Assembly (NCBI GenBank): GCA_012845835.1
Contig: JABAKD010000010.1
Location: forward strand, 14,317,401 to 14,381,400
DNA: 64,000 bases
Source: Undaria pinnatifida
Taxonomy: Eukaryota; Sar; Phaeophyceae; Laminariales; Alariaceae
Direction of reading: 5' to 3'
The notes beneath the pieces are model-generated. The model was given only the letters and a program-made list of their open reading frames with translations. It was not told where the DNA came from and did no database searches. Below, piece by piece: positions 7,801 to 54,035 of this stretch; the first letter of the stretch is position 1, and every line of letters starts with the position of its first letter. Both the position numbers and the translations under genes were made by a program.

Positions 7801-10800
7801 CTACTGTTTTGTGTGGTTCGGGCAGGGTGTAGTATAGGGCATGGCAGGCTTGTGTGTGCGTGCGTGTGTACGTGTATTTTTTTTTTTTGTTGGCGACTGT
7901 TCGGAGCGTTGCAAGAGGGAGGGGGCTAAGTGCTGCCCTTCTCATTGTGATCTCTCTCTCTCCCTGACCCCCCCCCCCCCCCGATCTCCTGTTACCCACC
8001 TCAAAGGTGTCGGACAGCACAGTCATAACTCCCAATGGTGTACCCGGCCCTCTCCACACCCTGCCGGAGTTCAAGAGGCGGCTGAAGACCATCATTGAGG
8101 TAAGGGGGGGGGGGGGCTCAATAGTTACTTGCTTAGTTATTTGACCATTGACCACGCTCCCCTTTCGAGACTGAGCACCGTTCCTACTCCTAGTAGAGAT
8201 ACCTCCAACATTTGGGCGCTCATTACACTTCTCCCATATATTTCATAGAAACTATTTGCTTATCCTCTCCCCATCCTGTTTCGCCGTCTGCGGCCACCAT
8301 CTATCTCCTAGGATAGCGATCGTTTTCTCGCTACTCTATAGTCTACCAAACTCGTCCATGTCACACGTGTCTAATTTCCTCATCTCCTCTAACGCATCCC
8401 GATCTTCCTTGTATGTTTCACATTCTCCTGCTATGTGAGTCCTACTCTCTAGTGCTGTGCCGCACGGGCACATATGTGTAGCCACGTCCTCCTCCGGACT
8501 ATTGGTATATCGCTTTCTTCTTTCTGGTAGGTCCAGGTCACCTACACCGAAATCGCAGTTTTTAGCTTTTCGCGCAGTCCATTGGGCCGTGCAGATACGT
8601 TTTAATTGCAATATCTTCCCTCAAACCCCCGTATATATCTAAGTTCTTCTCTTTCACCTTTTTCTCAGCGCTAGCCCTGCCCTTTCTTCTATGCTTTATT
8701 TTACTCATGTCTTGTACCCGATAAACTCATCTATAGGCAGTACCTCTCCTTGGTCTCCCCGTAACTCCTTCCATATTTATTGAGGGGGGGGGGTGGTCAG
8801 CTTATCGCCGTGTTGCGCGGTCGCCTTTATGGCAAAAGCGAAGTAATTTATTGACTTGTTGATAGCGTGTGACTGAGGAAGTGAAATGTCTTGTGTCTGC
8901 GAACATGGATTATGTGCGTCTTGAAAAAATGTATTGCTTTTTGCCTAAAATATAGCGGCTTCCCACCGTGCTTGCGCCCGCGCCGCGCCGCGCGGCGCTT
9001 CGCCTGCGCCTTTAATGAAACGATAGATAAATGGGTATTTGTGTGAGAGATAAAGTGATTGTTTTGTGCCTGATTTAACGAGATACCAGGCATAACTCTG
9101 ACCAAACGAAAGCATCTGTTTATGCTTGTTGGGCTAAAACGATGACATACGCCCGACGTAAGAAAAACTATGACTGCTTCTAATAAAAAAAATGCCTCTC
9201 ACAAACGAAGTTACCTGTTTGTCTTGGTAGACAAAAAAAAAACGTATCTGACGAACGATAACTTTTGGGGTGACGTGGGAAAAACGGAATGGTTAGCAAA
9301 ACGAAAACACGTACGTCTGGCGAACGAAGTTGTAGCCATGCCTGATAGACAAAAATATATGCCCGATTTTTTTTCATCATATAACCCGTTCAGGACCCGT
9401 ATAGAACGAGCACATCCAAATACATGATGCGTTTGGTATTACCAACCATGTGCGGCTTGTGTGAGCGGGCAGCAGTACGTGTAAGGTGACTTGAGAGTCC
9501 GTTTCCTACGACTCCTGCCTCTCCTCCTGCGTCTTCTGCGTGTTTTGTTAGAAAAAATAACGGCAGCTGCCGTCTCTTTTTGTTTTCATCACTTTTCTCT
9601 CAACTCGTAAGAGGTTTTACCCTCAGCGAGCGACCTTCTGGACAAGCCATGCCGTGGTCACAAGCGTCTTTCCCTTCCCCCCCCCCCAGGTACTTTGCCT
9701 TCATTTTTTATCGCGCATAGGGTCCAGCGTTCTTCCCACTTTTCGTATTTTTTATGCTCGTCGATTTGCATCGAATTTTGCCAACTCACGCTCTCGCGCT
9801 TTGGGCCTGTCGATTTCTGTTACACTGAATCTCTTTGGAGATTCGAACCTACGACCTCGACCTCAACAGTTGCGCGTCTTACTGTCGGACCAACGGGGAC
9901 GCCGGCTCGGGTATAGTCAACTATAGTAACTGGAGGTTTTACCACCGATCGTACGCAACGAAAACAGGCAATAAAGCTGTCGTATCCCCTAACCAAGCAG
10001 TGCCCGATGCAGTAGGGTTCCCCCATAAGGCGGTCTGAGTAAGGGCTGGTAAGGCGATATCCCGATATAAGGCGGTCAGAATCGCTTGGCGCGACTGGGG
10101 AATTGCTCTCATAACCTGGAATGGATAAGGCGGCTTCCCTCTATAAGGCGGTTATATTGCCCTCTATAGCACACCGCCTTGCTGGGGGACCCCTGCTAGC
10201 TGTGCGGTAATCGTCTTTTTGTGTAGTTTTGCTGTGATCGTCATTGTGTGTAAGCCGTTTCGCTGTAATGGTCTTTTTTAGTCATTTTGCGGTCGTGGTC
10301 GCTTTGCCGTGGTCGTCATTTTTTGTTGTCATTTTGGTGTAATCGTCATTTTGTGTCTGCGGTTGGCTGTAGCCGTAAACTTTGTCTTGTCGTTTTGCAG
10401 GTCTAAAGCTTGGTCCGAAAGGGTGTAGTGCCTGGTACGTCATACCTGGTAGTCTGTGCCCGTCAGACCCAAAAAACTTGCTTGCCATAATACGAATCGC
10501 ACCTGACAAACAATAAGCAAATGTAGTTACTACGCACGCATGTAGCGTGAATCTAGGTCTGACAAGCAACGAAGACGTATGCCTGACAAATGGCGAGAGA
10601 GCATGCCTGACATTACCGAAAGCAAGTATCCAAAAATACAACGTCAGCTTGCGCTGCCGGGGTTGTAACGAAGACCACTGATAGGGACAGCTTACGCTAT
10701 ACCTACAATGGGACCCGAAGGGTGCGCCAGCTAGCGTTGGGCTGCGAAAGCAACTGAGTTAAATCGACACACGACGCGTATGAAAATACGTGGAAGTGTG

Positions 10801-53789: not shown

Positions 53790-54035
53790 GTGGGGGATCC
53801 CCAACAGTGCCGGTTGAATAGTGCCACTGCTCTATATACTGCCGGTGAAATCGCTTGGCGCGACTTGAACTCTCTATGGCAGCTCTCTATATGGTTGAAC
53901 CCTGTTCCGAAATAGTGCCGGTGTCCTGAATAGTGCCGACCAATGGTACGGTAGGGGGGGTCCTTTTCGGGCACTTTCTTTTCAGTGGCTCGGTATCACT
54001 CGCGCGAGCGAGTGACCCCCCCTGTTCCTTGCGGT
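53790..54035. mobile_element. Word-array foldback element, TAGTGCCGGT type, with a conserved centre and palindromic tail
   Basis: It begins GGGGGATCCCCAACAGTGCC and contains five AGTGCCGGT-like words around GAAATCGCTTGGCGCGACTT, the centre also present at 10079. The 3' part holds TGGCTCGGTATCACTCGCGC, GAGCGAGTGACC and CTGTTCC, which recur at 38949. Confidence 0.6.

Follow-up and report, generated by a model that had tools for sequence, protein, structure and literature searches.

How can several short DNA elements share one central motif when the words of which they are otherwise built differ from element to element? This question is raised by a locus in the brown alga Undaria pinnatifida, which we investigated in a window of 64,000 nucleotides (the whole stretch analysed, positions 14,317,401-14,381,400 of contig JABAKD010000010.1) and in the genome, analysed as 511 Mb in 68 contigs. 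The window contains an exon encoding an MA3 domain of a host gene (13877-14026, E 9.5e-7), which indicates that it is eukaryotic; among 33 distinct window ORFs and ORF pieces only this exon reached a curated Pfam cut-off, and Rfam (gathering threshold) and tRNA scans of the window gave no match. From the comparisons described below we consider it very probable that the elements are pogo-type transposons and their deletion derivatives, in which the words are transposase-binding sites that have co-diverged with the DNA-binding domain.

The original prediction of a centre common to elements with different words is borne out in the window. The centre, AATCGCTYGGCRCGACT, occurs exactly at 10080-10096 (plus strand), 17581-17597 (minus strand) and 53849-53865 (plus strand), and a fourth match with 3 mismatches lies at 42278; shuffled sequences average 0.35 matches and 0 of 100 reach 4. 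With at most 1 mismatch allowed, and with words picked after the elements had been seen, TAAGGCGGT is present in 6, 5 and 3 copies in the stretches at 10008, 16019 and 17525, respectively, and TAGTGCCGGT in 10 copies at 11562 and 3 at 53786, no cross-over between the two words being detected among these five stretches.

Two of the presumed separate elements, at 16024 and 17533, are however the ends of a single one. A search for inverted ends identified a 1,642-bp element, termed EL, with exact 18-bp terminal inverted repeats (TIRs), TACAGTGGGGGTCCCTCA, and TA at both edges; the boundary sequence GGGGGTCCC is thus accounted for as terminal inverted repeats. EL is colinear with the genomic sequence L120+L117 in three blocks of 84.7, 90.0 and 87.7% identity, while ∼3.2 kb of the middle of L120+L117, including the DDE domain, is absent from EL, which has ∼230 bp extra. 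By this alignment EL is a pogo-type (DDE_1) transposon shortened by deletion, which has a decayed relative of ∼4.5 kb elsewhere in the same genome, and the colinearity indicates that the end bearing the centre corresponds to the transposon's 5' end. The features of EL are:

16019 to 17660, minus strand: EL, internally deleted pogo-type element, the 17660 end being the 5' end
17525 to 17660, minus strand: 5' subterminal region with TIR, three word sites and centre
17581 to 17597, minus strand: conserved centre, exact AATCGCTYGGCRCGACT
17323 to 17421, minus strand: remnant of the Cys-rich module of the transposase N-terminal region, PCASGELC...GGCGGRLHG
16917 to 17099, minus strand: remnant of the CENP-B-type helix-turn-helix (HTH), with the helix GLRTVSRV; HMM E 9.2e-29, EL itself being among the six HMM seeds
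16606 to 16914, minus strand: stretch from beyond the deletion, fused to the HTH remnant and 90.0% identical to 4496-4801 of L120+L117
16019 to 16170, minus strand: 3' subterminal region, TAAGGCGGT words in both orientations with strong hairpins, resembling the L117 3' end

The junction in the alignment places the deletion of the DDE domain directly beside the HTH remnant, and a stop codon occurs just ahead of this remnant. The centre, supposed to be the middle of a foldback, is instead a site near one end, ∼64-80 bp inside and 5' of the transposase. The foldback form itself holds for one of the three stretches folded, the 16019 end folding far better than shuffles (z -8.6), but not for those at 10008 and 6777 (z -1.9 for both).

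Four short elements in the window appear, from their ends, layout and alignment scores, to be related to EL, the one at 6777 being new with respect to the original prediction:

10008 to 10198, plus strand: E1, class A MITE (TAAGGCGGT), identical at 164 positions to the 183-bp class A consensus (built from 45 other loci)
10080 to 10096, plus strand: conserved centre of E1, exact AATCGCTYGGCRCGACT
11562 to 11895, plus strand: E4, class B element (TAGTGCCGGT), with a TACAGT left end at 11562 and a right end at about 11750 or 11895
53786 to 54026, plus strand: E5, class B element (TAGTGCCGGT), centre exact
53849 to 53865, plus strand: conserved centre of E5, exact AATCGCTYGGCRCGACT
6777 to 6963, plus strand: E6, 187-bp short element of a third word class (TTTTGTGCGGT-like), same layout, centre variant AATTGCTTGCCACAG

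The left half of E1 matches the 17660 end of EL and its right half the 16019 end. E1 thus joins two EL ends, and the elements have the attributes of MITEs in being short and non-coding, with TIRs and derivation from a larger element. E4 contains an internal ∼155-bp duplication (repeat at 11593-11892) and a degenerate centre (12 of 23 positions, ungapped), its kinship being evident mainly through E5 (score 67 against a shuffle maximum of 33). E6 is the weakest member, as a five-element profile constructed without it gives E values no better than 0.53 for its centre and 0.17 for its right TIR; its assignment is drawn from the TIR pair (TACAGTCGTGG.../AACAGTCGAGG...), its position and pairwise scores reached by 0-6 of 500 shuffles. 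The E6 centre matches at 17 of 23 positions at offset 59, a score of at least 17 occurring at only 5 of 127,954 positions, and its word ends are spaced 15 and 18 bp apart. E6 has one TAAGGCGGT-like site and its inter-site spacers are less alike to those of the other elements. The right part of E5 (∼53958-54035) can be aligned to 38915-38993 with a score of 67, where 1,000 shuffles gave at most 41; the second of these stretches adjoins a different word array (CGGTCAGTCAAGG), the segment being common to differing word classes.

Alignment from the ends (17660, 10008, 11562, 53786 and 6777) revealed a common register, in which word ends are 14-15 and then 18-19 bp apart and, in the window elements, the centre or a centre variant follows 2-3 bp past the last word site, E1 having one extra word copy 9 bp on. 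Each class can in part be found, in register, from the other: a profile of class A only finds 53787 (E 2.4e-5), although it misses 11562, and a profile of class B only finds 17660 (E 7.2e-6) and 10009 (E 3.9e-4). The element at 6777 was matched by neither profile.

The arrays at 15586 (CGGTCAAGG) and 33355 (TTAAGAGCG), which had been thought related to these elements, both exist, but their relatedness to the scaffold is unsupported. Scores of the array at 33350-33553 against the five 5' ends fall within those of shuffles (61-189 of 500 reach them), and the CGGTCAAGG arrays (15560, 38810 and 39580) carry their own words. Other repeats are also present in the window. Inverted repeats of 18 exact bases, longer with mismatches, surround 1.2 kb including a long TAT repeat at 61513-62744, which looks like another mobile element. 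Inverted copies of ∼1 kb, 89-97% complementary in pieces, are located at 28520-29596 and 43531-44599, and a dispersed repeat of at least 300 bp with G-rich tracts occurs in five direct copies (26115, 37276, 45648, 49288 and 50631) and inverted at 48021-48477.

The association of words with the centre extends beyond the window. With up to 2 mismatches the centre matches 2,685 + 2,740 = 5,425 times genome-wide, compared with 39 + 41 = 80 for the reversed-pattern control. We sampled 80 of the 89 listed clusters of exact centre matches, a non-random set from the first-listed contigs, containing 86 exact centres; 48 copies have TAAGGCGGT (A) only, 35 have TAGTGCCGGT (B) only, 1 has both and 2 have neither. 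The centre is therefore not restricted to one word class. Mixing of A and B was observed in 0 of the 70 copies in which at least two of the three leading sites could be classed, the remaining 16 of the 86 having one or no leading site classed. One centre base does track class, G in 46 of 49 A copies and A in 31 of 35 B copies, with 2 ties. Consensus sequences from 74 of the 80 loci (45 class A and 29 class B copies, after removal of three loci with several centres, one with N and the two ties) have sharp ends with TIRs at both, confirming that the copies possess defined boundaries, and class A copies are 168-216 bp long (16 of 45 with both ends found). In three loci (L020, L030 and L051) the centre-bearing unit is tandemly repeated, the step in L051 being 81 bp, a pattern reminiscent of satellites seeded by MITE ends.

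TA is kept in part at the ends of these copies, preceding the left end of class A MITEs in 12 of 31 cases and following the right end in 5 of 19 (background 5.4%), with corresponding values of 2 of 9 and 2 of 10 for class B (background 6.4%). In the 16 A copies with both ends found, TA flanks at least one end in 9 and both ends in 0, and it flanks both ends in 1 of 4 such B copies. TA does flank both sides of EL and of the transposase-bearing element L101, and TA-CAGT is found in 12 of 13 transposase-bearing 5' ends, the exception, L105, having TATAGTAC. Comparison of the joined 80-bp flanks of ten window stretches with the window detected no empty site; a 24-bp match over the joint of the 6777 element (41425-41448, 91.7%) is too short to count as one.

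Transposase-bearing relatives are encoded in the same genome. DDE_1 (PF03184) has 82 matches there and in 0 of 14 control genomes, with E values of 6.5e-28 (L103) and 1.4e-28 (L100). CENP-B_N scored 21.5 bits against a cut-off of 21.2 in L103, the only ORF scanned to pass, and HTH_Tnp_Tc5 scored 23.1 against 22.2 in L100, the remaining HTH matches in the ten pieces scanned being below cut-off. NCBIfam returned only IS630 at E 0.041 for four transposase pieces, and PDB sequence searches gave no match. Together, the DDE_1, CENP-B_N and HTH_Tnp_Tc5 content and the TA-CAGT ends indicate pogo-type cut-and-paste transposons, so that the earlier view that no described family has this design is not supported. 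The upstream side was taken for 18 of 30 listed DDE_1 loci, the other 12 not being extended. In 13 of the 18 the 5' end carries the scaffold, consisting of a terminal TACAGT (12 elements), the word in two or three copies and a centre variant, with six words between them:

L117: word TAAGGCGGT, two leading sites; centre variant AAAATCGCTGGGCACGACT
L101 and L109: word TAGTGCCGGT (class B); AGATTTCTGGACACAGAC at the centre position
L100, L102, L105, L106 and L108: word TAGTGCA(GGT) (class C); L100 centre variant AAAATCTCTGCGCACAGAC
L103, L115 and L092: word TAGTGCGGGT (class D); L103 centre variant GAAATCGTTTGGCACAATA
L091: word TTTAGCGGTT
L095: word ATAGCGGCA; centre variant GAAAATCTCTTGACACCAT

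Spacing is 14-15 and 17-18 bp where three sites persist, and words are present at both ends where both were reached, for example in EL, L117, L101, L109, L105 and L091. L117 is decayed, with in-frame stops and a 3' terminal repeat that is not clear. Among the other extended loci, the scaffold was not recognised in L114, L116 and L090, and L110 and L111, whose 5' ends were not found, have class A words at their 3' ends only. A conserved Cys-rich module (about PCAxGELC..., a further 14 letters not shown) precedes the HTH in L101, L100, L103, L114, L115, L117 and window 17323-17421. It is a possible second DNA-binding domain; for the module-containing ORFs of L101 and L100, Pfam at E 0.1 returned HTH families and nothing else. 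In both L122+L101 and L124+L109 the HTH-coding stretch is present in two copies, the second copies lacking the domain start and being 89-96% identical to the L101 ORF in matched pieces.

Comparison of words with proteins indicates that the word class of an element corresponds for the most part to its position in the transposase tree and to the recognition helix of its CENP-B-type HTH. Exact words are distributed near-diagonally among the 13 elements, the only off-class occurrences being a single D word (L102) and a single G word (L108). DDE identity is 86-96% within multi-member word classes and 59-85% between classes, B and C being 82-85% identical (L101 versus L105/L100, 84-85%). The DDE tree supports the groups B, D, B+C and L091+L095; support is weak for 5 of its 10 inner branches, and the placement of L105 within its word class is not firm. 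The third helix of the HTH reads GLRTVSRV (A), SERFVRTVKAD (B), SVRFLATV (C), G-RTI-SIK (D), STTTVGEIKK (L091) and GTTAIGTIKK (L095), alike inside word classes and unlike across them, six of the sequences compared having been seeds of the HMM. The base after TAGTGC near the 5' end is C in 12 of 12 sites in class B (L101 and L109), A in 28 of 30 in class C (L100, L102, L105, L106 and L108) and G in 13 of 13 in class D (L103, L115 and L092); in the last 600 bp of the stretches it is C in 7 of 7 and A in 9 of 11, L103 having one T. L105, in which one 5' site is still C, may be intermediate between classes. Class B MITEs carry the exact centre, as opposed to AGATTTCTGGACACAGAC in the class B transposase elements L101 and L109, and the true transposase partner of these MITEs was not found, L101 and L109 being the class B transposase elements detected.

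Since the words lie near the ends, the predicted place for a CENP-B-type HTH to bind, are present at both ends of elements in which both were reached, and vary with the helix, we read them as putative transposase-binding sites. The 5' ends are built on one plan: an inverted end of the form TACAGT...GG-CCC is followed by the word copies, all of a single 8-10-bp word and usually three in number, with their ends spaced by 14-15 and 17-19 bp, and a few bases inward lies the ∼17-bp centre. Each word copy would be bound by the N-terminal CENP-B-type helix-turn-helix of the transposase, several bound subunits assembling the end for cutting at TA. Following a change in the recognition helix, only elements with matching changes in their sites would remain mobile, with the result that the word would be replaced as a set on an unchanged scaffold, the centre being a further site that is slower to change. 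We infer binding, mobilisation in trans and selection as the cause. The predicted family with set-wise replacement of words, as sites for a changing protein, is supported at the sequence level by the unmixed words, the TIRs and the agreement with the HTH.

Concerted evolution, the cause offered alongside a changing protein in the original prediction, would homogenise the sites of one end through slippage, template switching or gene conversion and would need no protein change. Local duplication does occur in these elements, as in the ∼155-bp repeat of E4, the tandem centre units of L020, L030 and L051 and the 42-bp steps between words at the L105 3' end. Copying would however move the flanks along with the words, yet the spacers are position-specific across the A and B classes (with CTGAG/TGAG/TGAA separating sites 1 and 2) and the spacing is fixed at 14-15 and 17-19 bp while the words change. 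Combined with the agreement of words with the HTH helix, this makes concerted evolution an unlikely cause. Alternatively, transposases and ends may have drifted apart as families split, with no selection for matching. Drift alone would also make word classes largely coincide with transposase groups, and the agreement of word, DDE and HTH could be plain co-divergence, all largely following one tree; independent drift of sites would not, however, maintain the agreement of sites within an element (A in 28 of 30 in class C), and we regard this possibility as distinctly improbable. A role of the words and centre as host regulatory sites, in the sense of transcription-factor arrays that transposons disseminate for another reason, is very improbable. 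A promoter or host-factor site is conceivable for the centre, which in L117 is located 5' to the transposase gene and in whose TTGGCGCG form a dyad TCGC-N5-GCGA is readable, but the words vary with the transposase and are present at each end in elements of which both ends were reached.

Co-divergence of words with the transposase DNA-binding domain, the reading we prefer, can be extended, although only tentatively, to a stepwise joint change of helix and word (TAGTGCC, TAGTGCA, TAGTGCG, TAAGGC and TAGCGG), in which case the related transposases of this genome would amount to a natural experiment on the recognition code. The centre might then act independently of the word, possibly recognised by the Cys-rich module or by a host dimer, such that recognition has two parts, a fast address and a slow dock.

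Close precedents for parts of this design are described in the portions of the literature available to us. The 5' TIR of Tigger-like elements is reported to contain a CENP-B box (PMC7325037, in the part available). The present elements resemble pogo/Tigger/Fot-type Tc1-mariner transposons and CENP-B in DDE_1, CENP-B_N/HTH_Tnp_Tc5 and the TA flank, but differ in having two or three word copies in fixed register at one end, a conserved centre distinct from them, six words distributed over 13 elements within a single genome, and an N-terminal Cys-rich module. In Ectocarpus, according to the available sections of PMC12477816, there are 17 Mariner-Tc1 families with almost 12,000 copies, mostly non-autonomous, including a 217-bp MITE relying on a 4.4-kb element (TcMar-N1/TcMar-2_Ec32) and a transposase with an added N-terminal EsV-1-7 domain. 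Compared by description only, these brown-algal TcMar MITEs are alike in being short and non-autonomous with a larger relative and in the extra N-terminal transposase domain; subterminal words are not described in those sections, nor do we equate the present Cys module with EsV-1-7. CACTA elements (En/Spm, Tgm) carry reiterated subterminal motifs in both orientations, thought to be bound by an element protein, which in soybean differ between two subfamilies of the one species, co-evolution having been suggested (PMC2613891, in the part available). CACTA elements have CACTA ends, 3-bp duplications and another transposase, with no fixed three-site register described in that part. Membership of this group is ruled out by the TA-CAGT ends and by the flanks of the 16 A and 4 B copies for which both ends were found, which have no match of 3-10 bp. 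The Submariner elements of Pandoravirus are likewise small TA-flanked MITEs of the Tc1/mariner type, for which mobilisation in trans is probable; the available text describes no word arrays in them (PMC4495683). Our searches for the TIR plus word A in viral and bacterial genome contig collections and for two B words in viral contigs yielded 0 matches; a single match to the centre pattern in viral contigs, with no word or TIR around it, was judged to be chance. The literature searched, mostly outside subscription papers and without supplements, contained no pogo family in which the word set changes on a shared scaffold, and the combination of a fixed multi-site scaffold, six words in one genome and a word-independent centre was likewise absent from it.

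These elements bear on the old question of how a transposase and its ends can change specificity jointly without loss of mobility. Close relatives (L101 versus L105/L100) differ by one word base at nearly all 5' sites and by few helix residues, and thousands of short copies may record the outcome of such word changes. If recognition indeed has two parts, families could share a dock, as A and B MITEs share one centre. The step from word to word is testable in vitro, and it suggests a rule by which MITE families could be assigned to transposases.
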